Assembly (NCBI RefSeq): GCF_000305775.1
Contig: NC_018866.1
Coordinates: 1,612,001-1,676,000, forward strand
Direction of reading: 5' to 3'
DNA length: 64,000 nucleotides
Origin: Dehalobacter sp. DCA
Lineage (GTDB): Bacteria; Bacillota; Desulfitobacteriia; Desulfitobacteriales; Syntrophobotulaceae
This document shows positions 4,444 through 62,851 of the stretch, one piece after another. Within the stretch, counting starts at the first letter, position 1. Each line of letters starts with the position of its first letter. The notes under the pieces are model-generated. The model was not told the origin of the DNA and made no database searches. It worked only from the letters and a program-made list of their open reading frames with translations. Both the position numbers and the translations under genes were made by a program.

Positions 4444-6104
4444 CTGAAGTTTCGCACCCCTCAAAACCCTTGTATCTCTAATTTAAAGGTATCCTAATGC
4501 CAGTGGTTCCTTCTGATTATTACCGATTAACTGGCATTTTTAAGGGCTATAAGCTGATTACTAAGAAAAGAATTCTCAAATAGTTCTTTCAAATGTTCAT
4601 ATTCACTGGAATTCCTAAATTCCAAAATGTCCACTAAACCAGACTTGGCGATGCTGGTGATCACCACTTGCAGCAAATCATCAAATAATTCCCAGAGCCG
4701 CTCCGCTACATTCTTCTCTATGAGTTCGTCCTTGATTTCCGCAAATAATCCTTCTAAGGATTCGTAGGCGTTTACTCGTCGAAAATAGGCTAGGAGTGTA
4801 TAGAGGAGATAGCAGGTCGTGATATGGGCAATCTGCGCATCGAAATCCCTCGATTGACAAGTCCCGAGCTTCAAATGCTGCTTGGCTTCCTTAAAAAAGA
4901 CTTCGATGGTCCAACGGATACTGTAAATCTCCAACATACTCAATAAACTAAGAGATATATCCGTCGAGAGGAACAGTCTAAATTTCTTTTGATAGGGAAA
5001 CCGGCAAAAATACAGTTTGATTTGTCCGATTCCTTCATAATCAACAAGGACTTCGAAATAACGGATATTCCGTTTCCTACAGCGTTTTTCGTTTCCCTCA
5101 CTTTTGAGGACCGATTTTAATTGGCTGGCATTAAGGGAAGTCTCTTTGTAGCGATACTTCCTCGTATCTTGCCGAACACCACAGACCAAATGCATCGATT
5201 TTTTGTCTAATCCTCGAATCGTTTGAATGAACTCGTAACTGCTGAACCAGCTGTCAACCAGGACATATTTAGCCTTAAACCCCTGTTTTACCGCCCGTTT
5301 TATCATATCCAGACCGTTCGAAATTTTGCTAACATGGCATTCTCTGATCCGTTTAGCCCCAGCAGATTTGGGGTCTCGTTGCTTTTTGAACCGTTCTTTA
5401 CGGTGCCTTGCCTTTTTTAAGGGCTTTTCCACTTGTAAAGTGAAGTCTATAGGCGTGAGGCTTTTACCATCGAAGAAACCAAGGGTTAAATTTTTAAAGC
5501 CTAATTTGCTACCTTTCTTCCCTGCAACATGGTCAAACACCTGGGTCATTTGTTCAATTCTTCGACCTGTCTTAGCAAGAGTTGTATCATCTAGAATGAA
5601 AGCGGACTTTTCATCCACTTCGTTCGTAGGATTAACCAATCGTTGAAACTGTTTGGATATACCGATCAGCAATGCTCTCCAAGGCATTTTTTCATTGTTC
5701 TTCAGTCGATATATGGAATCTTTCTTCATAGTAGTAACCTTTTGGAAATCGCTTTTATATAACGCGTGGACACTTTTCAGTAACATTAGGGGCAACATCA
5801 ACATTAGTGAGAGGATTTCCGCGGAACTGTAACCATCCTGTTTCAGAAAACCAACTTTGCGGCAAAGCGTTTTAAGCTTGAACGTCTTCATAACTTCACA
5901 TATAATATTGTTAATCGAATAGCCGTGATTTTGGAGTACGTTTTCAATTTCTTTGACAGGTTTCCGCATGATAACACCTCATTTTTGGTTGATTTGGAGT
6001 AGCATCTTATTATACCAAAAACCTAGTGTTCATGCGGATTTTTATCGTTTTTTCGTCTTATTCTAAGCCGAATTTTCGGCTGTTTTATGGGTGCGAAACT
6101 TCAG
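4444..6104 (-). mobile_element. Complete IS4-superfamily insertion sequence, 1661 bp
   Basis: The ends are perfect 16-bp inverted repeats, CTGAAGTTTCGCACCC at 4444-4459 and its reverse complement at 6089-6104. They are flanked by a 6-bp direct repeat ATTCAT (4438-4443 and 6105-6110), the target duplication. One transposase gene fills the element. A GCCGAA/TTCGGC hairpin (6068-6081) just inside the right end could block read-through into the transposase. The intact ends and intact gene suggest a recent insertion. Confidence 0.93.
4527..5969 (-). CDS. IS4-family DDE transposase
   Basis: 480 residues with a DDE (RNase H-like) core: the first Asp in FILDDTTLAKTGR (about 128), the second in YVLVDSWFSSYE (about 237), and the Glu in the Y-(2)-R-(3)-E-(6)-K signature (YSIRWTIEVFFKEAKQHL, about 350-365). 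The N-terminal part is a helical DNA-binding region rich in Lys and Arg. The start follows GAGGTG. It catalyses cut-and-paste movement of the element around it. It appears full length and uninterrupted, so probably active. Confidence 0.93.
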   Translation of the reverse strand: MRKPVKEIENVLQNHGYSINNIICEVMKTFKLKTLCRKVGFLKQDGYSSAEILSLMLMLPLMLLKSVHALYKSDFQKVTTMKKDSIYRLKNNEKMPWRALLIGISKQFQRLVNPTNEVDEKSAFILDDTTLAKTGRRIEQMTQVFDHVAGKKGSKLGFKNLTLGFFDGKSLTPIDFTLQVEKPLKKARHRKERFKKQRDPKSAGAKRIRECHVSKISNGLDMIKRAVKQGFKAKYVLVDSWFSSYEFIQTIRGLDKKSMHLVCGVRQDTRKYRYKETSLNASQLKSVLKSEGNEKRCRKRNIRYFEVLVDYEGIGQIKLYFCRFPYQKKFRLFLSTDISLSLLSMLEIYSIRWTIEVFFKEAKQHLKLGTCQSRDFDAQIAHITTCYLLYTLLAYFRRVNAYESLEGLFAEIKDELIEKNVAERLWELFDDLLQVVITSIAKSGLVDILEFRNSSEYEHLKELFENSFLSNQLIALKNAS

Positions 6105-9367: not shown

Positions 9368-12043
9368 TTACTTCGAAATTCTAACTGCACACACCTTGTA
9401 TTCGTACGTACCCGAGACCTTATCGCAAGCTGCGTTCGTCAAAACATTGACCGGGGAGTCCACATAGTGGAACGTCATGAAGATCATTCCAGGCGGAACT
9501 TTGTCCGTTACCCTGACCTTTGTATCCACTTCGCCCCGGCGTGAGGAGACCCTGACCTTCTCACCGTCACAGACATTTAGGTTCCTGGCATCTTCAGGGT
9601 TGACCTCGGCAAATTCTTCTGCCGAATAAGCACTTAACACGTCTGAATAGCGCGTCGAGATGTTATAGTGGCTAAGTTTGCGTCCGGTGCTGAGCAGGAA
9701 AGGATAATTCTTATCCGGCAGCTCATCCGAAACTCTGGCTTCAATTGGCATAAACAGCCCATTGCCCCGCGTGCAGCCATCCATATGCAGGATCGGGGTA
9801 CCCGGATGGGTTTCACAGGTAACCGGCCACTGCAGGCCATGCGTTCCGAGACGTTCGTGCGAAATACCCGCGTATTGCGGTGCCAGTGAAGAGACTTCAT
9901 TCATGATGTCTGCCGTTGAATGATAGTTGAAATCAGAGCCCATTCTGTTGGCAATGGCACTGATAATCTGCCAGTCTGGTTTGGCGCCTTCAGCAGGCTC
10001 AACCGCTTTGTTGACCATTTGCACGCGACGTTCGGTATTCGTAAATGTTCCGGTTTTTTCCGCGTAGCTCACGCCGGGAAGCACGACATCGGCCAGTTTG
10101 GCTGTCTCGGTAAGGAAGATATCCTGGACAACCAGAAAGTCAAGTGCCTGTAGTCCCTTGCGTACATGGTGGGCATCTGCATCCGTTGAAACCGGGTCCT
10201 CTCCCATGATATACATTGCTTTCAGCTTCCCTTTAAGAGAGGCTTCAAACATATCCGGGATCATGTACCCTTTGTTCGGGTTTAAAGGTACTCCCCAGAC
10301 CTTTTCAAATTTGTCTCTTGCTTTTTCGTCTTCCACTTTCTGATATCCCGGGAAGAAGTTCGGCAGCGCGCCCATATCACAGGCTCCCTGGACATTGTTT
10401 TGTCCCCGCAGCGGATTGACGCCGGAATTTTCTTTGCCAAGATTGCCGGTCAGCATGGCCAGGTTGGCCAGGGACATCACATTGTCCGTACCGGTGATAT
10501 GCTCGGTAATGCCCAGTGTATAGAAGATCTGGGCACTTTCGGCTGTAGCATAGATCTCCGCAGCCTGATAAAGGAGTTCCTCCTGAACCCCGGTAACCCT
10601 GCTGACATACTCGGGCGTATATTTAGGAAGGATCACCTTCAGTCCTTCATATCCTTCCGTTCTTTTTTCAATAAAGGAACGATCTTCCCATCCCTGATTC
10701 AGAATGATATGCATCAGCCCGTTGACCAGCGTGATGTCTGTCCCGGGCCGCAGCCGCATCCAGACTTCGGCAAACCCGGTCAGCTCGATTCCCCTCGGAT
10801 CGGCCACAATCAGTCTGCAGCCGTTGAGTACTGCCTGCTTGATCTTGCCGCCGATGACGGGATGAGCTTCAGTCGTATTGGAACCGATCACTAAAATAAC
10901 CTTAGAATGCGGTATTTCACCAATTGAGTTCGTCATAGCTCCCGAACCAAATGAAGTGGCCAGACCGGCCACAGAGGGAGCGTGTCAGGTCCGGGCGCAA
11001 TGATCGATGTTATTGGTTCCGATCACTGCGCGCATCAGTTTTTGCATCAGGTAATTGTCTTCATTGATACAGCGTGCTGAGCTTAAAGCACCTAGCGAAT
11101 CAGGACCATTTTCGGCCTTGATTGCCGTGAATTTCTCTGCGATAAGATCAATGGCTTCGTCCCAGTTCGCTTCGACCAGTTCACCGTCTTTTCTGATCAA
11201 CGGAGCTTGCAGGCGGTTCGGACTGTGAATCGTATCATATCCAAATCGTCCTTTCACACACAGTGCCCTGCCATTAACCGGTGCATCGGAATTGGAGGTT
11301 ACTCCGATCACTTTGCCGTCCTTGACGTTCAGGTCAAAATTGCAGCCTGTTCCGCAGTAAGGACACGTGGTCCGAACCTTTTTGATTTCCCAGGGACGTC
11401 CTTTGCCGATCATTTGTTTTTCAGTCAGTGCGCCAACCGGACAAACGGCCAGACATGAGCCGCAGAATACACAATCCGAGTCACCGTACGGCAGGTCAAA
11501 AGCAGGCCCAACCTGGGTTTCAAAACCGCGTTTGGAATAATCCAGAACATTATTGACCTGAATCTCGGCACAAGCCCTCACGCATTTGCCGCATAAAATG
11601 CATTTATTCATATCCCGAAAAATGAACGGATTGCTGTCATCCGGGTCAGAGCAGCGTTTCTCTCCCTGAAAAGTATTTCCTTTGACCTGATATTCATAGG
11701 CATAACGGGAAAGATCGCAGTCTCCCATCTTTTCGCAGGTTAGGCAGTCAATATCATGGTTCGCTAAAATCAATTCCAGGATAGTTCTGCGGGCTTCCCT
11801 AATTTCCGATGTTGAAGTCCTTACGACCATCCCCTGTTGTACTTCCATCGTACATGCTGTAGCCAGGTTTCGCATGCCTTCTACTTCGACCATGCACAAC
11901 CTGCAAGCGCCCCAGTTGGTCAGTTCGGGAGCATGGCACAGTGTCGGAACAGAAATCCCGTTTTTCCGGCAAGCTTCCAAAATCGTAGATTTTGCTGAGG
12001 CCAATACAGTTTTTCCGTCAATTTGGAGTTGAACCTTTTCCAC
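9368..12043 (-). CDS. fdhA: Selenocysteine-containing formate dehydrogenase catalytic subunit
   Basis: One 891-residue protein read through an in-frame UGA at 10987-10985 (residue 353). It oxidises formate, or reduces CO2, at a molybdenum or tungsten bis-pterin cofactor. N-terminus: [2Fe-2S] site (CHAPELTNWGACRLC), His-Cys [4Fe-4S] site (HDIDCLTCEKMGDC), two ferredoxin clusters (CILCGKCVRAC, CVFCGSCLAVCPVG). Then the catalytic domain with its own cluster (CPYCGTGC) and pterin-binding segments to the end. The UGA falls in NIDHCART-U-HAPSVAG, exactly where family members carry selenocysteine, and a SECIS hairpin follows. GTG start with AAAGGAGTGAG. Last gene of an operon with NuoE- and NuoF-like subunits, so NAD is the likely partner, with ferredoxin possible (inference). 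An automatic caller would split it in two. Confidence 0.95.
10938..10987 (-). promoter_or_regulatory. UGA selenocysteine codon and bacterial SECIS hairpin in fdhA
   Basis: The UGA is at 10987-10985. Twelve bases later comes a perfect stem GTGGCC / GGCCAC (10972-10967 with 10961-10956) closing the loop GGTCT, the apical GGUCU known from E. coli fdhF. An outer GCTCCC / GGGAGC pairing (10981-10976 with 10943-10938) extends it. It should bind SelB and direct selenocysteine insertion. Confidence 0.92.
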
Positions 12044-39673: not shown

Positions 39674-40042
39674 ATGGAGCAAATTGTGCAGGTATTCAAA
39701 GCGCTTTCTGACGAAACAAGACTGCAGATCCTGCTAATCCTGTCCAGAAGAAGCATCTGTGCTAAAGGAATTGCGAGACATCTTCAAATTTCCGAAGCAG
39801 CCGTGTCCCAACATATTAAAATTTTAAAGGAAGCCGGCCTTCTGATTGGCGAGAAAACAGGCTACTTCGTACAATACAATTTGCAGCAATCTGTTTTTGT
39901 AGATATGATCGGATTCATTGAGCAGATATCAGGCACCCACACCTCGGGTCACTATAAAGATGTTTTCAGCGTCCCATTCAATTGTCAATATGCTTGCAAG
40001 GCCCAGCGTGAAAAGTGCTGTGAGCGTTCAAGCAATGAATAA
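39674..40042 (+). CDS. ArsR-family regulator with Cys-rich C-terminus
   Basis: 122 residues. Winged helix: ALSDETRLQILLILSRRSI, then ISEAAVSQHIKILKEAGL and the wing GEKTGYFVQYNL. The tail contains FNCQYACKAQREKCCE, four cysteines suited to metal or redox sensing, which is outside the usual ArsR core. Start after CGGAGG. It lies 22 bp ahead of a NifX-like metal-cofactor protein, so the two may form a metal-responsive unit. Confidence 0.85.
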   Translation: MEQIVQVFKALSDETRLQILLILSRRSICAKGIARHLQISEAAVSQHIKILKEAGLLIGEKTGYFVQYNLQQSVFVDMIGFIEQISGTHTSGHYKDVFSVPFNCQYACKAQREKCCERSSNE

Positions 40043-40064
40043 ACCGCAGAAAAGGAGCTTAAAC

Positions 40065-40430
40065 ATGAAAATTTGTATCCCTGTAAAAGAAGACAAAGGA
40101 CTTGAGAGTATCCCCTATGATCATTTTGGCTCAGCCCCATTTTTTCTGATCTACGACCTGGATAAAGAAGAGATGAAAGTCATCGGCAACGGAGACTCTC
40201 ATCATGAGCACGGGATGTGCCAGCCTTTGAAGGCATTGGGTGGAGAACAGGTGGACGCGATATTGGTCGGCGGAATCGGTGCAGGCGCCCTAATGAAACT
40301 CAATGCGCAAGGGGTGCGTGCTTTACGGGTTGATAATACCACCGTTTCGGATAACATCCAGCTCTTCCTGGATAACCAGCTTCCGGAATTCTCTGCCATG
40401 AACAGCTGCAACCATCACGGATGCCACTAA
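40065..40430 (+). CDS. NifX/NafY-like (dinitrogenase iron-molybdenum cofactor family) protein
   Basis: 121 residues of the RNase H-like Nif cofactor-binding fold: MKICIPVKEDKGLESIPYDHFGSAPFFLIYD and LVGGIGAGALMKLNAQGVRAL. Two His/Cys-rich patches stand out: SHHEHGMCQP in the middle and CNHHGCH at the very end. No nif structural genes are near, so it likely carries or senses a metal or Fe-S species for another purpose. Start after AAAAGGAGC. A terminator follows. Confidence 0.85.
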   Translation: MKICIPVKEDKGLESIPYDHFGSAPFFLIYDLDKEEMKVIGNGDSHHEHGMCQPLKALGGEQVDAILVGGIGAGALMKLNAQGVRALRVDNTTVSDNIQLFLDNQLPEFSAMNSCNHHGCH

Positions 40431-40507: not shown

Positions 40508-43114
40508 CTATTTAAAGAAACATATCGCTTTTTGTTTCCCGACATCAGCAATAATCTCCAGGGCTTTATGCATTCCTTTATTGACATCATATACTTTAAT
40601 GATTTCTCCAAGGGAGGCGCTCAGTGGTAGCAGCTCAGGAAGCAAATTTTGAAAATGGTTTAATAGTTTTGTCTGAAGGACTCCTCCCCTGCCTTCCGGA
40701 AAAAGCGCCACATAAAAGATATCACTTTCAATGAGATCCTGAAAGAAATGGGTTCCGTAAGATATCTCCGGGGTGAACCCGCCCTCTTTAACTGCAATTT
40801 CACCAAGGACAGTGATATTATTAATTTCGGAAAAATAAACAGGCACGCCGAGCGAAGGCGTACTGGTACCCCATCGTCCAGGGCCGAGCAGCAGCACGGT
40901 CATGTTTTCTTTCTCAATCTGGCTGTTCAATTTGCCGATACATCTGGCTACCCTGTATTTTTCGAGGTCACTTAGCCTGCTGTAGGTTTCAGGCTCGACA
41001 TAAATGATTCGCTGAATACCATAATGGATATTCCCACCCATGAAAGTATTATGGCTTTGAAAGAATGTTTTTTGGAAATCAATATGTTTCGGGAACACCA
41101 CCTTACTTTTGAGACCTTTTGCGGGCAACGGCCTGCACTGCAGGAGATTGATCTGATAATGATCCAAATCTTTAAAATTAACGGTAAATTCAATGTCCAC
41201 CGGATATGCGTAGAATTTTTCCAGGCATTTAAGCATTTTTTGAATGACCCCGACAAAAGTGGAATCGGACAGAAATTGATCAAAATTAATAATCCAGGCC
41301 TGCCGGTCTTGTTGGCCTATTTCTTTCATCATTTTTTCTGCAGTATAGTCTCTCTGCGCGAAATAATGCAGTTTGGGATCGTCAATTTCGTTTAAAAGAT
41401 CGCTAAACGCGATACCAATCATGCTGTTTTTGGTTACCATCAGCGCATCAATGTTTCTTTGGGCATATTGCCTGTAATCATCAAAATCCGTTAAAGGTGA
41501 TGACAAAGGTTCATCAATCGCAATAATTCTGGCATAGTCACCTGCCGTACGGTTTACAGCCCGAGTGCCTAGACCTACAACTACCCGCAGCATGCCCGCT
41601 TTCGGAGACATTTTCTCATCCCAGACATAGATATTGTTTGAGTAGCCGACCCCAGCAAGATCCGGGAAAAAATATTCCTTACGATAAGAACCCGATACGC
41701 GTTGAACAAGCAAAGCCATTTGCTCATCCTGGTCGGCTATTCCTCGTTTCAAACGGTACATCAGCGCGTCGTCGCTCATCGTGCTGGCAAAGACTTGTTT
41801 CACAGCGTTTTCAAATTCAAGATAGCGATGTTCGAGCGTACCTTGGTTCGTACAAAAAACACTTTCATATTTTCCAGCAAAAGAATTACCAAATCCATCT
41901 TCCAAAAGGCTGCTGGAGCGGACAATGATCGGTGATTGTCCAAAGTACTCCAGGACCCGCAAAAAATGGTTTTTGACATTCTCCGGAAAAACACCGCTGA
42001 GTATTTTGCTTTTAATGACTCTGGCCAGAGAAAAATATTTTTCAGGTTTTCTCTGCTCCATTCTAAGTTTCCAGAGACCATTTTTAACAAGATAAGTGTA
42101 AAAGACATCAGAACCAATGTAGAACGAATCATGGGGTTCCAGAATTTTTTTATAATCAAAATTTTCATCTTCAAGCAAAATTTTTCTGGCCAGAAGCATT
42201 CCGACCGCTTTACCGCCGATAAATCCCGATCCAATTAAACTTGACTTGATCTGAAGCAAATCTTCCAGAGTAAAGACCTTCGTCAGCAACTCAAGGAATC
42301 TTTCATCGCGACTTAAAACCATCCGGCAGAGCTTTTCTACCAGGTTTTTTCCCTCAGCAGACGGCATACGACTGAATTTTACCTTTTCATAGGTGTCTGA
42401 CGCTTTCAAAAACATCCGGTCCCAATAATCCAAATGCCTTCGCGGAGCATCAAACACATTCAGGGACATATCTGCAAACAGCTTTGAAGCATCGCTGCTG
42501 CTTGTTAACGGAATAAAATCCTGCGCCTGTTTGATATGCGGCAGAAACATCGTCGGTGAATACCTGTCGATCACTTTGACCGGATGGATATAGGTCTGTC
42601 CCCTGACATTATAGATATTCATCAATACCTGGGTCGTTTCCCGAATTGCGGAAATCGTTTCATACGAATTCATATTTTTATAAATTGCAAAGAAAGCCAC
42701 CGTTTTCAGTTCATATAAATACGGACAGGTGATCTGAAAAAAGTTGCCGATCATAAGATCCGTTGCCCAGGTGTACAAAAGATCGGACAGACAATCAAAA
42801 ACGTAAAAAGCCTCTTCTCCCTCAGCTGCAATAATCTGGTGAACCTGCGTGGAAAAAGCTTCAAAACCGTGTTCGGCGTCAATATGATACACTTTAACAT
42901 TTTCATTGTCGTCAATAATTGGAGAATGACGCGCAAACCGCATATAAATCACTTTTCTGCCCTCGTCCAGACTCGTTCTGACAAAAGGCAGCACAAAGGA
43001 TTCATAATCTGCGATATTGTCAACCTGCAGAACAACATTATCGCCAATCCTGAGATGGTCGATGATCTCATCGAGCCCCGGCAGGCCGGATCTTATTTTC
43101 TTACGCTGATCCAT
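40508..43114 (-). CDS. PEP-synthase-like protein with degenerate RecA/KaiC N-domain
   Basis: 868 residues. The first 215 resemble a KaiC/RecA ATPase (GLPGLDEIIDHLRIGDNVVL) but the P-loop Gly-Lys-Thr is missing (QVDNIADY in its place). Residues about 290-680 are the nucleotide-binding domain of pyruvate phosphate dikinase/PEP synthase (GFIGGKAVGMLLARK, VRSSSLLEDGFGNSFAGKY). The rest (GPGRWGTSTPSLGVPV) ends without the swivelling phospho-His domain or the PEP-binding barrel. So it may bind ATP or a phosphorylated ligand but cannot run the full synthase cycle. Start follows AAGGAATG. Function unknown. Confidence 0.8.
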   Translation of the reverse strand: MDQRKKIRSGLPGLDEIIDHLRIGDNVVLQVDNIADYESFVLPFVRTSLDEGRKVIYMRFARHSPIIDDNENVKVYHIDAEHGFEAFSTQVHQIIAAEGEEAFYVFDCLSDLLYTWATDLMIGNFFQITCPYLYELKTVAFFAIYKNMNSYETISAIRETTQVLMNIYNVRGQTYIHPVKVIDRYSPTMFLPHIKQAQDFIPLTSSSDASKLFADMSLNVFDAPRRHLDYWDRMFLKASDTYEKVKFSRMPSAEGKNLVEKLCRMVLSRDERFLELLTKVFTLEDLLQIKSSLIGSGFIGGKAVGMLLARKILLEDENFDYKKILEPHDSFYIGSDVFYTYLVKNGLWKLRMEQRKPEKYFSLARVIKSKILSGVFPENVKNHFLRVLEYFGQSPIIVRSSSLLEDGFGNSFAGKYESVFCTNQGTLEHRYLEFENAVKQVFASTMSDDALMYRLKRGIADQDEQMALLVQRVSGSYRKEYFFPDLAGVGYSNNIYVWDEKMSPKAGMLRVVVGLGTRAVNRTAGDYARIIAIDEPLSSPLTDFDDYRQYAQRNIDALMVTKNSMIGIAFSDLLNEIDDPKLHYFAQRDYTAEKMMKEIGQQDRQAWIINFDQFLSDSTFVGVIQKMLKCLEKFYAYPVDIEFTVNFKDLDHYQINLLQCRPLPAKGLKSKVVFPKHIDFQKTFFQSHNTFMGGNIHYGIQRIIYVEPETYSRLSDLEKYRVARCIGKLNSQIEKENMTVLLLGPGRWGTSTPSLGVPVYFSEINNITVLGEIAVKEGGFTPEISYGTHFFQDLIESDIFYVALFPEGRGGVLQTKLLNHFQNLLPELLPLSASLGEIIKVYDVNKGMHKALEIIADVGKQKAICFFK

Positions 43115-43171
43115 TACACATCATTCCTTACACCAATTTAGCTATCATTTTATTCTTAAAAAATTAATAGT

Positions 43172-43188
43172 TGTTAACATTGTTAACA
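43172..43188. promoter_or_regulatory. TGTTAAC-N3-GTTAACA inverted repeat
   Basis: A perfect 7-3-7 inverted repeat, 58 bp ahead of the PEP-synthase-like start. It resembles Rex half-sites (TTGTTAA / TTAACAC) but with a 5-base centre in that alignment, so another regulator is possible. Confidence 0.5.
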
Positions 43189-43280
43189 CTCAAATCTATA
43201 CATGCAAACAGCCAATAACAGATACGCAAAAACCAAGCAATGGATCTGGCATCTATCCATTACTTGGCTTTACTATGCGG

Positions 43281-43367: not shown

Positions 43368-44852
43368 CTAGATAATTATACTTTTTCCCATCAAATATTT
43401 GTCCACTTCTCTAGCTGCCAGCTTTCCTTCCTGGAAAGCCCAGACAACCAGACTCTGACCTCTGCGCATGTCGCCAGCAGCAAAAACTCTGTCAACATTC
43501 GTCTCAAAAAACGCATATTCCGCTTTGACATTGCTGCGAGCATCCCGCTCGAGCTTAAGCTCTGTGGGGATATTGTCTTCAGGCCCTAAAAAGCCCATGG
43601 CCAGCATGATCAGGTCCGCTTCCCATACCTTTTCACTTCCTGGAGTCACCTGTGGAACCATTCTGCCGGCAGCATCTTTTACCCAGGTAAGGTTGACTGT
43701 ATGAACTTCCTTGACCTCACCGTTCTCATTGCCCACAATCTTTGTGGTGGAAATGCAATAATTCCTCGGATCCTTGCCATAAAGACAGATTGCTTCTTCC
43801 TGTCCGTAATCCACTTTCAGTTTTTTCGGCCATTCCGGCCAGGGGTTCGTAGCTTCAATACGATGGGCAGGCGGCTCTGGCAGAATCTCAAACTGGAAAA
43901 CGCTCTTACAGCCATGCCGTATTGCCGTAGCCACACAGTCCGTCCCGGTATCCCCGCCGCCAATGATGATGACATTCTTACCCTTGGCACTGATAAAACT
44001 CTCATCCTTTAAGTTGGAATTCAACAGGCTTTTGGTGGTCGCTTTGAGGAAGTCTACAGCAAAATAGACCCCTTTCAGATCTTTGCCTTTCACATCCAGC
44101 CCCCGGGGCTTGGTAGCCCCTGTGCACAGCACAACGGCATCATAGTTGTCTACGAGCTCCTGGGCCTTCATATATTTGCCGACTTCGGTATTCAGAACAA
44201 ATTCTATCCCGGATGTCTTCAGTACATCAAGCCGCCTTTCAATAAATCGTTTATCAAGCTTCATGTTGGGGATCCCGTACATCAAAAGTCCCCCGGCCCG
44301 GTCATCTCGCTCATATACCGTAACCTCATGGCCGACGGCATTCAGATAATAGGCCGCAGACAATCCGGACGGGCCCGAACCGACAACAGCGACTTTCTTG
44401 CCGGTGGCTTTGGCCTTCTTAGGGGTTACCCATCCTTCGGCAAACGCTTTCTCGATAATCTCATATTCAATGCTGTTAATAGTCACAGCGTCCATGATAT
44501 AGCCTTCGGTACAAGCCCCTTCACAAGGTGCAGGGCAAACCCTTGAGGTGAATTCCGGGAACGGCGTCGTTCTGGTCAGCCGCTTGTATGCTTCCCGCCA
44601 CTGTCCCTTATAGACGAGCTCATTCCATTCTGGAATCAAATTGTGCAGCGGGCAACCTGAAGCGGCGCCGTTCAAGAGCACACCGCCGTGGCAGAAAGGT
44701 ACACCGCAGTCCATGCAGCGCGCGCCCTGCGTTCGGACAATCTCAGGATCCTGGGGAATCTTGACTTCATTGTAGTCTTTGATCCGCTCTTCAGGCTTTC
44801 TTTTCTTCGGATCGATTCTGTTATACTCTAAAAATCCTGTTGCTTTTCCCAT
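43368..44852 (-). CDS. gltD: Glutamate synthase small subunit
   Basis: 494 residues. N-terminal cluster region: CMDCGVPFCH and GCPLHNLIP, then CPAPCEGACT. FAD and NADPH Rossmann motifs VAVVGSGPSGLSAAYYL (about 150) and VIIIGGGDTGTDCVA (about 290). It supplies electrons from NAD(P)H to GltB. It starts 2 bp after the gltB stop, with its ribosome site in the gltB end. Confidence 0.96.
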   Translation of the reverse strand: MGKATGFLEYNRIDPKKRKPEERIKDYNEVKIPQDPEIVRTQGARCMDCGVPFCHGGVLLNGAASGCPLHNLIPEWNELVYKGQWREAYKRLTRTTPFPEFTSRVCPAPCEGACTEGYIMDAVTINSIEYEIIEKAFAEGWVTPKKAKATGKKVAVVGSGPSGLSAAYYLNAVGHEVTVYERDDRAGGLLMYGIPNMKLDKRFIERRLDVLKTSGIEFVLNTEVGKYMKAQELVDNYDAVVLCTGATKPRGLDVKGKDLKGVYFAVDFLKATTKSLLNSNLKDESFISAKGKNVIIIGGGDTGTDCVATAIRHGCKSVFQFEILPEPPAHRIEATNPWPEWPKKLKVDYGQEEAICLYGKDPRNYCISTTKIVGNENGEVKEVHTVNLTWVKDAAGRMVPQVTPGSEKVWEADLIMLAMGFLGPEDNIPTELKLERDARSNVKAEYAFFETNVDRVFAAGDMRRGQSLVVWAFQEGKLAAREVDKYLMGKSIII

Positions 44853-44854
44853 GA

Positions 44855-47800
44855 TCAGACCTTCCCTTCAAAGGCAGCCGTCAGGGCTTCTTCACCGCTT
44901 AAGCCAGCCTTATGAGCTCTATCGATATTTTCCATCATCTTTTTATAATCTTTGGGTATGATCTTCGTAAATCTTGGCGCGTAATTCACCCAATCATCCA
45001 GTACTTTCCGGCCTAGGGGGCTTCCCGTGTGCGCTACATGTTTACGGATCATTTCCCTGATTTCTTTCAGTTCCTTTTCCGAAGTGATTTTTTCCATAAG
45101 GATCAGGGACTTGTTGCAGTATATTTCCTCAAAATCAAGGATATAGGCAACACCACCGGACATGCCCGCAGCAAAGTTCCGTCCTGTCTTACCCAGGATC
45201 ACAACTTTTCCTCCGGTCATATATTCACAGCCATGGTCGCCGACACCTTCAACAACCGCATTGACGCCGCTGTTTCGGACACAGAATCTTTCACCGGCGA
45301 TTCCGTTGATATAGGCTTCACCCGAAGTTGCGCCGTAGAAGGCGACATTGCCGATTAGGATATTTTCCGCTGGTTCAAAATCCGAAGTTTTTGGCGGATA
45401 GACCATAATTTTACCACCCGAAAGGCCTTTGCCAATATAGTCATTAGCATCACCCTCAAGTTCCAAGGACATGCCCTTGGGTGCGAACGCACCAAAGCTT
45501 TGACCAGCAGAACCAACAAAAGTCAGCTTAATGGTATCCTCCGGAAGCCCCTCTTCCCCGAAACGCTTGGTTATTTCACTGCCGACAATGGTTCCAACCA
45601 CACGATCCACATTGTTGATCTTCAGTTTGGCCCGGATTGATTTTTTGTGTTCCAGGGCCGGTTTGCACATTCTTAAAAGCTTGCGCATATCCAGGGATTC
45701 TTCCAGTCCATGGTTTTGCTGCTGTGACTTAAATCTGCCGACATCTGCACCGGCATAGGGCTGATACAGAACCTGAGAAAGATCAACCTTAGCTGCTTTC
45801 CAATTCTTAATATTTTCTTTGTGTTTGAGCCTGTCTGTACGTCCAACCATTTCATTAATGGTCCTGAAGCCGAGTTTCGCCATAATCTCCCGCATTTCCT
45901 GTGCAACAAACAACATAAAATTCTCAACATGCTCAGGCTTGCCGGCAAAATTCTTACGGAGCTCTTCATTCTGGGTTGCAATACCTACAGGGCATGTGTT
46001 CAGATTGCAGACGCGCATCATCACACAGCCCATGGAAATGAGTGGGGTGGTGGCAAATCCATATTCCTCAGCGCCTAAAAGTGCAGCGATGACAACATCT
46101 CTGCCTGACAGAAGCTTACCGTCTGTTTCCAGGACGACTCTGTCTCTTAAGCGATTAAGCACAAGGGTCTGATGGGTTTCGGCAAGTCCCAATTCCCACG
46201 GCAATCCTGTATTTTTAATACTTGTTCGCGGTGAAGCACCTGTGCCGCCATCATAGCCGCTGATCAGAATAACGTCGGCCTTGCCCTTGGCCACACCGGC
46301 TGCAATCGTACCGACACCCACTTCAGAAACAAGCTTAACATTGATCCGAGCATCACGGTTGGCATTTTTAAGGTCATGGATCAGTTCCGCCAAATCTTCG
46401 ATTGAATAGATATCATGGTGCGGCGGGGGTGAAATTAGTTCGACACCTGGTGTCGAGTGTCTGACTTTGGCAATCGCCGGAAAAACCTTCCGGCCTGGAA
46501 GCTGCCCGCCTTCTCCAGGCTTGGCTCCTTGTGCCATTTTGATCTGTATTTCTGAGGCATTTACCAGGAAGCTGCTGGTAACACCGAAGCGACCTGAAGC
46601 AACCTGCTTGATGGCACTGATCAGACTGTCGCCATTAGGCAACTTTTTGAATCTTTCAGGATCCTCGCCGCCTTCACCGCTGTTACTTTTGCCGCCCAAA
46701 CGGTTCATGGCAATCGCCATACATTCGTGAGCTTCCTTGCTGATCGAGCCATAGGACATTGCCCCGGTCTTAAATCTTTTGACGATAGACTCGACCGGTT
46801 CGACTTCTTCGATTGGAATCGTATCTCCGGCGCTTATTTTGAAATCCAGCAGCTGCCTGAGTGTATAGATCTCCTCGTCATTAATTTTTCTGGAGTAATC
46901 TTTGAAAAGATGGTAATTGCCTTCCCGGCAGGCGCGCTGGAGCAAGTAAATTGTTTCCGGATTATAGAGATGAATCTCCCCACTATCTTTACATTGGTAG
47001 AAACCGCCGATTTCCAGTGTATCTGTGTAGAGTGCATTCTCATCAAAAGCGCTTTCATGCCGCATTTGATTTTCCATCGTAATCTCTTCCAGACCGATTC
47101 CTTCCAAGCGGGATGGCGTCTGAGTAAAGTAGCGGTCAATCAGATCTCTTTTCAGTCCGACAGCTTCAAATATCTGGGCACCATGGTAGCTGCGCATCGT
47201 CGAAATACCCATTTTCGTAAGCACCTTTAAGATGCCTTTGATCGAGGCTTTAATATAGTTCTTTTTGGCCTCCCGATAACTTAGGCCATTCGTCATTCCT
47301 TTGGCCGCTAGGTCTCTGATCGTTTCGTAAGCAATATAGGGGTTGATCGCGGTAACACCGTACCCGATCAAGGCACAGAAATGGTGTACCTCCCTGGCTT
47401 CTCCGGTCTCCAGAACAATACCCACACTCGTCCGGATTTCACGGCGTATCAAATGGTGATGCAGCCCTGAAGATGCCAGAAGAGCGGGGATAGCAGCAAA
47501 TTCTTTATTAACGCCCCTATCCGAAAGAACAAGAATATTTGCGCCATCAGCGATTGCTTTATCTGCTTCCCGGGATATTTTGTCTAGAGCTCTTTCCATT
47601 GCTCTAAGGCCGCCAGTTACCTTGTAAAGAATGGAAATCCTGGCTGTCTTGAACTTCCCGTTATTTAATTTCATAATGGTATCCAACTGATTATTGGTGA
47701 GGATCGGTGACTCCAGATATACTGCGGAACTATGCGTCCGGTCAGGATCCAGAAGGTTTCCCGCATTCCCCAGGAGCATTGTGCTGGAGGTAATGATCTC

Positions 47801-49411
47801 CTCACGGATGCCATCAATCGGGGGATTCGTCACCTGGGCAAAAAGCTGCTTGAAATAATGGTACAGCATTTGAGGTTTGTCTGAAAGTACTGCCAGCGGT
47901 GAATCCATGCCCATCGATCCAACAGGGTCAAGGCCATCAGTCGCCATCGGCAGAATCATTTTATTGATATCCTCATGGGTATAGCCAAATGCTTTCTGCT
48001 GGGAGATAATATCTTCCAGCATTGGTGCTTCCAATTCGTCGTCAGCAGGGAGATCACTTAAATAGACAATATGCTTCTTATTCCACTCTTCATACGGATG
48101 CATCAGGGAAACATTCTTTTTGATTTCCTCATCAGAAATGATCCTTTGTGCTTCCGTATCGATCAGGAGCATTTTACCCGGTTCCAAACGGCCTTTATAC
48201 TTGACATTTTCAGGTTTGATGTCGAGAACCCCCACCTCGGAGGCGAGGATGACTTTATCATCTTTGGTGACATAATAACGTGATGGTCTGAGTCCGTTCC
48301 TGTCCAGTACGCCACCGATAACTGTTCCGTCCGTAAAGCCCATGGCAGCTGGTCCGTCCCAGGGCTCCATGATAAAATTATTAAACTCATAAAAGTCCTT
48401 TTTTTCTTTGGACATCAGATCATTCTTTTCCCATGGCTCAGGAATCATCATCATGACAGCATGAGGAAGCGATCTGCCGGTAAGATGGATAAACTCAAGA
48501 CTGTTGTCAAACATGGCCGAATCACTGCCTGACTCGTCAACAATCGGATATACCTTGGAAATATCATTAAACAACGGTGAATCAATGCATTTTTGCCTGG
48601 CCTTCATCCAGTTCACGTTTCCTCTGATGGTATTGATTTCTCCATTATGGACAATATACCGGTTCGGGTGCGCCCGCTCCCAGCTCGGAAAGGTATTGGT
48701 GCTGAACCTGGAATGAACCATGGCCAGTGCTGAAACAAAATCGAGATCGGAAAGATCCAGATAAAAGTTTCTGAGCTGTTCGGCTGTAAGCATACCTTTA
48801 TAGACAATGGTTTTGCTGGAAAGGCTGGCAACATAGAAGGAGCCGCCCTTGTCTTCACACATTGGGATGATCAGTTTTTCTGCTCTTTTCCGAATGACAT
48901 AGAGCTTTCTTTCAAAATCCATATCATCGGTCAGATCAGGGCTTCTTCCGATAAAAACCTGTATAAACCGGGGCATAACAGCTTTTGCACTATGGCCGAC
49001 CGTCGATTTGTCGATCGGGACTTCCCGCCACCCAAGAATCTTCTGTCCTTCCTCACGAACAATCTTTTCAAAAGAGTCCATCTGGGTAACCCGAAAATCT
49101 TCATATTTGTGCGCAAAAATCATTCCTACACCATATTTGCCCTTTTCCGGCAAATTAAAGCCGAGAACATCACATTCCCGTTTAAAGAAGTCATGGGGTA
49201 TTTGCACCAGAATGCCAGCGCCGTCACCCGTATTCTCATCCGCACCACTGGCGCCTCTGTGGTTTAAGTTTTCCAGAACGGTTAAAGCTTCCTCGACAAT
49301 GTCGTGTGATTTTTCACCTTTGATATTCACGACAAATCCCATACCGCAGGCATCATGCTCAAAGGCCGGATCGTAAAGACCCTGTTTTTTTGGCAATTGA
49401 TTGTATTTCAT
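44855..49411 (-). CDS. gltB: Glutamate synthase large subunit
   Basis: 1518 residues. Glutamine amidotransferase class II N-terminus: the catalytic Cys in [11 protein letters not shown] (about residue 22) becomes N-terminal after propeptide removal. Central and FMN-binding synthase domains follow ([19 protein letters not shown]), the [3Fe-4S] ligands in [15 protein letters not shown], and the C-terminal beta-helix domain ([11 protein letters not shown]). It makes two glutamates from glutamine and 2-oxoglutarate. ATG 49411 follows AAAGGGTGTG; three upstream codons are in frame. Confidence 0.97.
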
Positions 49412-51057
<1,646 letters not shown>

Positions 51058-60819: not shown

Positions 60820-62851
60820 AGGGGCTGTATCACAACTTAGCCCCAAGCGAAAGACGTCAATTTAAAAAAATGGCGTCTTTTCTTTTTGGGGTAGTGCAGA
60901 CTCGCACAGTCCACCGCTCCCCCGTTCTCGCAGCTAAAAACAGAAACCCTCGCTAACATGCCAAAACCCCGCTGTTTACTGCAAGTTAACCGTTGGCATG
61001 TTTTAACGCTGCGGATTTCTGTTTTTTAACGCTGCTGCCACTAACGTCCGCTTGTGAATCTGTGCAAGTCTGCAATATTTGAAGAAATCAGCAGATATAG
61101 GGAGATATTTTGACGTGAATGTGGTATAATGTCTATGGATATAAATATTGCCATATTTGGAGGTATTTGAATGTCTAAGAAAGGGCAGAAAGTACATACC
61201 AAGAAAGTATTTAAACCTTATGTGCAGGAACAACAAACACTGCCGTTAAGCATCGACAGCCTGATTCCTCAAAACCATGTCGTCCGAGTTGTGAATCGTG
61301 CTATCGATCGCATGAATCTCGAACCCTTGTTTGCCAAATATCCTGGAGGCGGCCGTTCCAGCTTTCACCCTGTCATGATGACCAAGTTATTGGTTTATGC
61401 GTATACGGACAGGGTTTTTTCATGCCGCCGGATAGCAAAAGCGGCCCGTGAAAATATTATGTATATGTGGCTGTGCGGCGGCAATCAGCCGGATTTCATG
61501 TCAGTTAACCGCTTCCGGAGTGAACGGATGAAAGAGGTTATTCTAGAAGTATTTGCTGAAGTTATTGAACTCTTAGTCAAAGAAAAATACATCAAGCTGG
61601 AAAATTATTTTTTAGACGGGACAAAAATTGAGGCCAATGCCAATAAATACAGTTGGGTATGGGGCAAATCCACGAAGCGCTATAAAGAAGCGTTAAGGGA
61701 GAAATGCCGGGAATTATTTAAAGAAATCGATCAGATCAATGAAGAAGAAAATGCGGAATACGGCGACAGTGATTTAGAAGAGCTAGGCAATGGCAAGCCC
61801 ATTGACTCAGAGGCTATTGAAGAAGCCGTAAGGAAAATTGACGAGAGACTGGCTAAGAAATCGGAAGAAGAGACAGTAGATGCTGAAACCAAAAAGTTAA
61901 AGAAAACAAGAAACACCCTTACGAAAGATTATCTGCCAAGAATGCAGAAATATGAACAGCAAGAACTGATCCTGGAAGAAAGAAACAGTTACTCCAAGAC
62001 AGATCACGATGCCACCTTTATGCGAATGAAAGAAGACCATATGAAAAACGGTCAGTTAAAGCCAGGTTACAATGTCCAGATCGGGACGGAGAACCAGTTT
62101 GTGGTCGGTTACAGTGTTCATCAGAGACCGGGCGATACCAGCTGTATGAAGGATCACCTGGAAGAATTAAAAACGCTCCTGCATGGGGAATTACCAAAGA
62201 ATATTATTGCCGATGCCGGCTATGGCAGCGAAGAAAATTACGACTATCTGCAGGAGAAAAAGCTTGTGTCTTATGTCAAATATAATACCTTCCACAAAGA
62301 AGCCAGTAAGAAATGGAAAGAAGACATAACGAAACCACAGAACTTCACCTATGACCATGAAAATGATGAATATATCTGCGGTTATGGGAGAACACTCATT
62401 TTCTTATACGAGCGGCACCAAAAAAGTGACAATGGCTATAGGAGTTTGATCCGAATCTATGAATGCCTGAATTGTTCCGGGTGTCCTCATCGGAACCAGT
62501 GCGTGAAGTCATCCGATCCATACGCTAACAGAAGAATATATGTCAATCGCAAACTGAATGCCTATAAAGAACAGGCCCGCAGGAATTTGTGTTCAGAAGA
62601 AGGTTTGCGCATGAGGAGCTTGAGGCCGGTCGAGGTTGAAAGCGTCTTTGGAGACATTAAAGGGAATCACGGTATGCGAAGATTCCTGTTAAAAGGGCTA
62701 GAAAAGGTTAAAATTGAGTGGGGATTACATTGCATCGCTCATAATATGAGAAAAATGGCGTTGATCACTGGATAGGAAACTAAATTTTAAAAAAATTCAC
62801 CATAAAAAGTGAGGGGGCGCAACCGAAACCTAAAGTTTCGTTACGCCCCCT
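60820..62851 (+). mobile_element. Complete IS1182-family insertion sequence, about 2032 bp
   Basis: Imperfect ends: AGGGGCTGTATCACAACTTAG at the left and, read inward, AGGGGGCGTAACGAAACTTTAG at the right. TTAA flanks both sides (60816-60819 and 62852-62855), a 4-bp palindromic target typical of this family. A hairpin near 60841-60891 (CCCCAA..GAAAGACG / CGTCTTTT..TTGGGG) lies ahead of the transposase. Confidence 0.88.
61171..62775 (+). CDS. IS1182-family transposase
   Basis: 534 residues. DDE core: ENYFLDGTKIEANANK (first Asp, about 152), IIADAGYGSEENY (second Asp, about 350), and the C-terminal Glu in RPVEVESVFGDIKGNHG (about 490). The N-terminal half has the helical DNA-binding DUF772-like region (SRIAKAARENIMYMWLCGG region) and a charged coiled coil in the middle. 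Extended -10 TGGTATAAT at 61122-61130; start after GGAGG. Full length. Confidence 0.94.
   Translation: MSKKGQKVHTKKVFKPYVQEQQTLPLSIDSLIPQNHVVRVVNRAIDRMNLEPLFAKYPGGGRSSFHPVMMTKLLVYAYTDRVFSCRRIAKAARENIMYMWLCGGNQPDFMSVNRFRSERMKEVILEVFAEVIELLVKEKYIKLENYFLDGTKIEANANKYSWVWGKSTKRYKEALREKCRELFKEIDQINEEENAEYGDSDLEELGNGKPIDSEAIEEAVRKIDERLAKKSEEETVDAETKKLKKTRNTLTKDYLPRMQKYEQQELILEERNSYSKTDHDATFMRMKEDHMKNGQLKPGYNVQIGTENQFVVGYSVHQRPGDTSCMKDHLEELKTLLHGELPKNIIADAGYGSEENYDYLQEKKLVSYVKYNTFHKEASKKWKEDITKPQNFTYDHENDEYICGYGRTLIFLYERHQKSDNGYRSLIRIYECLNCSGCPHRNQCVKSSDPYANRRIYVNRKLNAYKEQARRNLCSEEGLRMRSLRPVEVESVFGDIKGNHGMRRFLLKGLEKVKIEWGLHCIAHNMRKMALITG

Follow-up and report, generated by a model that had tools for sequence, protein, structure and literature searches.

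A PPDK_N protein with a P-loop-less KaiC-like domain: a putative regulator encoded beside genes of ammonium, glutamate and glutamine assimilation

The window analysed here, a stretch of 64,000 nucleotides from Dehalobacter sp. DCA, contains an open reading frame next to the glutamate synthase genes whose deduced product combines part of a PEP synthase with an ATPase-like domain, and it raises the question of what such a protein can do in the cell. The 868-aa protein, named FAM here, is encoded on the minus strand at 40508..43114 (stop codon 40508-40510). The gene was defined as an open reading frame and judged to be real, since a Shine-Dalgarno-like AAGGA site is located ahead of it at about 43125-43129. 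FAM is 98-99% identical in three genomes of the same genus and 48-65% identical in other genomes. A first-pass annotation had described the product as the N-domain of PEP synthase joined to a dead KaiC-like ATPase, and this description was borne out by the match to PF01326 and by comparisons with hhalign and Foldseek. The sole Pfam match of FAM is PPDK_N (PF01326) at residues 298-668 (E 3.3e-45), and an AF2 model of the full protein, calculated with the window protein and 46 homologues, reached a mean pLDDT of 84.9 and a pTM of 0.82. FAM consists of three domains, the first two of which are joined by a helical linker:

42500..43114, minus strand: residues 1-205, KaiC/RecA-like domain without P-loop (hhalign, Foldseek)
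42242..42499, minus strand: residues 206-291, helical linker (AF2 secondary structure)
41111..42223, minus strand: residues 298-668, PPDK_N ATP-grasp domain (PF01326, Foldseek)
40511..41110, minus strand: residues 669-868, C-terminal GRWG/GTHFF domain (AF2, no solved structural relative)

The third domain had been overlooked in the first-pass annotation and is conserved as much as the rest of the protein. Across 79 aligned FAM members from many phyla, 140 residues are invariant. The loss of the P-loop and the missing domains might suggest a degenerate PEP synthase without function, but this reading is already contradicted by the number of invariant residues, and also by the conserved gene context described below, so that its probability is practically negligible.

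The N-terminal 205 or so residues of FAM aligned with a KaiC domain profile built for comparison (hhalign probability 91.5, E 9e-7), and the Foldseek search of the AF2 model against the PDB yielded a KaiC/FlaH match with an E-value of about 2e-9 and a TM(target) of about 0.7. In the profile alignment, the Walker A motif of KaiC (GxxGxGKT) faces the stretch (GDNVV)LQVDNIADYE of FAM. A GK[ST] motif at this position is present in none of the 79 aligned members, and residues G24, D25, N26 and V28 are invariant in all of them. The catalytic glutamate that follows strand 2 of KaiC is replaced by alanine or a variable residue (A/R in FAM) within the motif FA(x)H. These data from Foldseek, hhalign and the 79-member alignment confirm the earlier view that a RecA-like fold persists from which the P-loop is gone. 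The two positions of interest are:

43004..43045, minus strand: residues 24-37, GDNVVLQVDNIADY, site of Walker A loss (hhalign, 79-member alignment)
42794..42796, minus strand: D107, the Walker B aspartate, still present (VFDCLSDLL) and unvarying among the 79 members

A search of PDB sequences with the N-terminal profile returned matches to RPA32 only (E 0.006), which were judged to be due to chance because fold and profile comparisons both point to KaiC.

The ATP-grasp domain of the FAM model matched that of rifampin phosphotransferase (RPH) in the Foldseek search against the PDB (E 8e-14), and a match to HpeI was likewise obtained. The following catalytic counterparts were located in this domain:

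42209..42211, minus strand: K302 (GGK), counterpart of Lys22 of PPDK/RPH (alignment)
41918..41920, minus strand: R399 (VRSS), counterpart of RPH Arg117 (PDB alignments)
41132..41191, minus strand: E642, Q659 and R661 (DIEF...LLQCRP), Mg/phosphate site (aligned with solved PEPS chains)

Both Lys22 and Arg117 are needed by RPH (PMC4844700). K302, R399, E642, Q659 and R661 are invariant not only in the 79 KaiC-type members but also in the related receiver-type, nucleotidyltransferase-type and short forms introduced below. The dikinase-like part had been said to keep its nucleotide-binding signatures, and the invariance of its catalytic and ATP-binding positions agrees with this. Because the counterparts of the catalytic residues of PEP synthase and RPH are invariant, ATP binding by FAM is likely and phosphotransfer possible, as judged from these alignments.

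The C-terminal domain of about 200 aa carries the invariant motifs GPGRWG and GTHFF. Modelled alone, residues 669-868 gave a pLDDT of 92.0 and a pTM of 0.90 (AF2). A Foldseek search of this domain against the PDB and the viral models of BFVD produced no match at E<=0.001, and a search of PDB sequences with the domain profile produced no credible match. According to the model, the domain thus seems to have a fold for which no related structure has been solved. Two of its residues are candidates for a functional role:

40874..40876, minus strand: R747 of GPGRWG, unchanged across all architectures (alignments)
40748..40750, minus strand: H789 of GTHFF, candidate acceptor or active-site histidine (alignments)

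H789 is invariant in the 79 KaiC-type members, and 24 of the 27 members with mixed architecture have it as well.

Pfam detected neither a phospho-His domain nor a PEP domain in FAM, as the first-pass annotation had stated. Since the swivel histidine and the PEP/pyruvate domain are both missing, FAM cannot make PEP, which supports the earlier conclusion on this point. That annotation had also considered that a nearby gene might supply the missing His and PEP domains in relatives, making FAM one half of a split synthase. Such a gene was searched for in the own genome, in five other FAM-bearing genomes and in the flanks of about 100 FAM loci, and none was found. In the own genome, PF00391 is confined to two genes that are distant from FAM and encode a PTS enzyme I of 584 aa and a PPDK of 889 aa, and the five other genomes likewise contain it in these two proteins alone. 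The divergent member L164 has a PTS-EI-like gene as a neighbour, but otherwise the flanks of the approximately 100 loci are devoid of PF00391 genes. The split synthase was therefore rejected, as no swivel-domain gene is located nearby. A looser version, in which the ATP-grasp domain of FAM is served in trans by the swivel histidine of PTS enzyme I or PPDK in the manner of HpeI/HpeH, can draw on the precedent of HpeHI (PMC12167813), on the Foldseek match to HpeI and on the PTS-EI-like gene near one divergent member. It is nevertheless highly improbable, given that no dedicated partner was detected in the own genome, the five others or the roughly 100 flanks, and that the genes adjoining FAM are nitrogen genes.

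To determine the distribution of the family, contigs of GTDB were searched. The single FAM protein gave no matches as a query, whereas an alignment query succeeded and detected 532 related stretches. Of these 532, the 80 with the highest scores were named; they were located by means of two short peptide patterns, include many MAGs and represent Thermodesulfobacteriota, Myxococcota, Planctomycetota, Omnitrophota, Spirochaetota, Bacillota and other phyla. A relative of FAM is encoded in 35 of 299 genomes of the phylum of the window, and the distribution is patchy even inside a genus. The constant module across all architectures is formed by the PPDK_N domain together with the GRWG domain. It is combined with the dead KaiC domain (about 860 aa), with a receiver-like N-terminus (about 1000 aa) or with a C-terminal nucleotidyltransferase (NTase) domain (about 1065 aa), or it stands nearly alone (567-757 aa). 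The NTase type is represented by L155, L156 and L157 (1061-1068 aa), which carry the motif GSTNNGxAGPGSDIDLL and are encoded directly beside GDH; L155 and L156 match PF01909, and the three proteins are possibly GlnD/GlnE-like regulators fused to the PPDK_N and GRWG module. Receiver-like N-termini precede the module in L022-L024 and L158-L160 (about 1000 aa), and L159 adjoins GDH. The short stand-alone forms L145-L154 and L161-L163 (567-757 aa) occur in other genomes of the phylum of the window outside a nitrogen context, and three of the short forms (L150, L151 and L162) lack the histidine of GTHFF.

In the window, GdhA is followed by the order GltB-GltD-FAM, which is repeated in all genomes of the same genus examined, and an ammonium transporter gene is located 16 kb away. 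The core of this region comprises:

43368..44852, minus strand: GltD, glutamate synthase small subunit, neighbour of FAM (Pfam; adjacent in all same-genus genomes)
44855..49420, minus strand: GltB, glutamate synthase large subunit (Pfam GATase_2, Glu_synthase, GXGXG)
49723..51057, plus strand: GdhA, glutamate dehydrogenase (Pfam ELFV_dehydrog)
43226..43268, minus strand: hairpin with T run that resembles a terminator, located between gltD and FAM (fold -22.9 kcal/mol, z -6.3)

The hairpin was seen by folding and is not listed by the promoter/terminator scan, for which its loop is too long. Because it separates FAM from gltD, co-transcription of FAM with gltBD is doubtful in the window. Beyond the hairpin, a palindrome GTTAAC-AAT-GTTAAC lies upstream of FAM at window position 43140-43240 and is a possible operator. 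No Rfam match was found around the FAM gene. On the other side, an ArsR-type regulator gene and a small NifX/NifB-like ORF (39674-40430, plus strand) are convergent with FAM. Elsewhere in the window, a formate-dehydrogenase-like alpha subunit (9368-12043, minus strand) contains one in-frame TGA at codon 353 (ARTUHAPSVAG) that reads as a selenocysteine codon, and two ORFs (4527-5969, minus strand, and 61171-62775, plus strand) resemble transposases of insertion sequences.

Other lineages present FAM in a variety of nitrogen gene clusters. The order is GlnA-GltB-GltD-FAM-PyrG/CarA-CarB in Omnitrophota and GDH-FAM in Sedimentisphaerales; in Syntrophales and relatives FAM is convergent with GDH and NrpR or follows CarA-CarB, and in Desulfosporosinus it is adjoined by GlnA and an ANTAR regulator. 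One genome of the same genus encodes two FAM paralogues, one after GltB-GltD and the other after CarA-CarB. A core nitrogen gene is present in the stretch at 66 of 79 loci and within two genes of FAM at 63 of them. After addition of further genomes to this earlier set, with ORF-based gene calls in the flanks, GDH, GOGAT, GS, CPS, Amt or NrpR was found at most four genes from FAM at 77 of 96 loci from at least nine phyla, compared with 7 of 180 random genes in 20 arbitrary control regions taken from genomes of the phylum of the window only; the remaining 19 of the 96 loci have no core nitrogen partner within four genes. On a FastTree tree, at least 25 changes in the partner class of FAM were counted, and inheritance of a single cluster therefore does not explain the association. 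Additionally, 33 neighbours on the same strand are located at most 60 bp from FAM, including overlaps with GltD, CarA, CarB and PyrG. Co-transcription with gltBD is likely only in lineages other than that of the window. GDH also adjoins NTase-type relatives and one receiver-type relative, and the short relatives without KaiC domain have no nitrogen context. One FAM member (L189:5905-11354) is oriented divergently to two P-II genes, and genes resembling those of ABC transporter permeases lie nearby. The link of FAM to nitrogen assimilation is thus strongly supported. The assumption of the first-pass annotation that the protein acts in an undescribed pathway is not supported, since the gene context points to the known assimilation of ammonium, glutamate and glutamine; its proposal of an ATP sensor or a regulatory phosphotransferase is still plausible, because the ATP-grasp domain is invariant at its positions for catalysis and ATP binding.

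Because its gene adjoins genes for building glutamate and glutamine across many phyla, FAM probably controls nitrogen assimilation, and on balance we favour, with modest confidence, an ATP-dependent regulatory protein of ammonium, glutamate and glutamine assimilation that is probably a phosphotransferase. We infer its regulatory role, the phosphotransfer and the acceptor in the following form. The PPDK_N domain would bind Mg-ATP and pass on a phosphate, and the dead KaiC domain would serve as a sensing or assembly module. The GRWG/GTHFF domain would take the place of the swivel domain and provide an acceptor or a second active site with H789 and R747. As its output, FAM would alter how active the neighbouring enzymes GDH, GOGAT, GS and CPS are or how strongly they are expressed. 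The phosphotransfer stays putative, because PPDK, PEPS, RPH, VadK and HpeHI all use a swivel histidine, which is missing in FAM.

The gene context alone fits a regulator and an enzyme alike, and the partners are mixed (GDH, GOGAT, CPS, PyrG, GuaA). FAM could be a metabolic enzyme in which the ATP-grasp domain activates ammonia or a substrate derived from glutamate or glutamine and the C-terminal domain finishes the reaction, comparable to RPH and PigC. PPDK_N enzymes with unusual acceptors are known, such as RPH (PMC4844700), FAM is weakly matched by PigC/RedH models and is encoded in operons with biosynthetic genes, and the invariant R747 and H789 resemble an active site. However, no single pathway step covers GDH, GOGAT, GS, CPS, PyrG, Amt and NrpR as partners, the receiver and NTase architectures look like signalling proteins, and the distribution is patchy inside a genus, so that we regard an enzyme as rather unlikely. 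A P-II-like sensor of ATP/ADP (energy charge) or of 2-oxoglutarate that acts as a scaffold for neighbouring enzymes and transfers no phosphate would accord with the missing swivel domain, the lost P-loop and the one member encoded beside P-II genes. This reading is unlikely as well, as no architecture shows variation at E642, Q659 or R661, not all of which are required for mere binding.

Taking the regulatory phosphotransferase further, we tentatively suggest, as a possibility short of an even chance, that FAM represents a widespread and so far undescribed class of nitrogen regulators apart from P-II/GlnD/GlnE and NrpR, consisting of an ATP-grasp kinase, a new C-terminal fold that replaces the swivel domain and a P-loop-less KaiC sensor, and controlling GDH, GOGAT, GS and carbamoyl-phosphate synthase in many phyla. 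A description of the FAM architecture or of its link to nitrogen was not found in the open-access papers searched. If the proposal is true, a common protein controls how nitrogen enters metabolism in at least nine phyla with many uncultured members, the PPDK ATP-grasp domain has been converted to a metabolic regulator a second time, in addition to VadK and with another acceptor domain, and a function can be assigned to genes that are recognised by family models only as incomplete PEP synthases.

A comparison with known systems places the parts of FAM in different protein families. KaiC, FlaH and RadA-type ATPases share with FAM the fold, the STGxxGLDxxLxxG start and the Walker B aspartate, whereas their own Walker A motif and catalytic glutamate are replaced throughout the FAM family; MEDS and Elp4 (PAXNEB), RecA-like cousins without P-loop, are weakly matched in Pfam by some FAM members. 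PEP synthase and PPDK have the PPDK_N domain and its catalytic residues in common with FAM, but carry on the same chain PF00391 and the PEP/pyruvate barrel that FAM lacks. RPH provides the best fold match for the ATP-grasp domain, with the counterparts of Lys22 and Arg117 kept; its rifampin-binding domain and C-terminal swivel His domain are both absent from FAM according to Pfam and the unmatched C-terminal model. HpeHI, a two-component dikinase, demonstrates that split dikinases exist (PMC12167813). Like FAM, HpeI is an ATP-grasp polypeptide that has no swivel domain of its own, but this domain is supplied to it by the HpeH partner gene, of which no equivalent was found for FAM, and HpeI lacks the additional N- and C-terminal domains of FAM. 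GlnD/GlnE-type regulators possess an NTase domain that is absent from FAM and present in its GDH-adjacent relatives L155 and L156. PspR of Haloferax, a PEP-synthase-like repressor (PMC10948481), is like FAM, as proposed here, a PEP-synthase-like protein turned regulator, but has kept the His domain and contains a DNA-binding domain, unlike FAM. VadK (Rv1127c) is a truncated mycobacterial PPDK that autophosphorylates on a histidine and tunes the flux of enzymes encoded nearby (PMC13400623). FAM and VadK both contain a PPDK-type ATP-grasp domain, lack the PEP/pyruvate domain, cannot have PPDK activity and are encoded beside metabolic genes. VadK, which targets the methylcitrate cycle, has no KaiC-like or GRWG domain and has kept the swivel domain with its phospho-His (His422), whereas FAM has no PF00391 match and falls outside the VadK type because this domain is absent. 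The missing swivel domain would be no argument against a VadK-like action through another acceptor, and FAM may work like VadK, a PPDK-derived histidine kinase beside the enzymes that it tunes, but with other sensor and acceptor domains.
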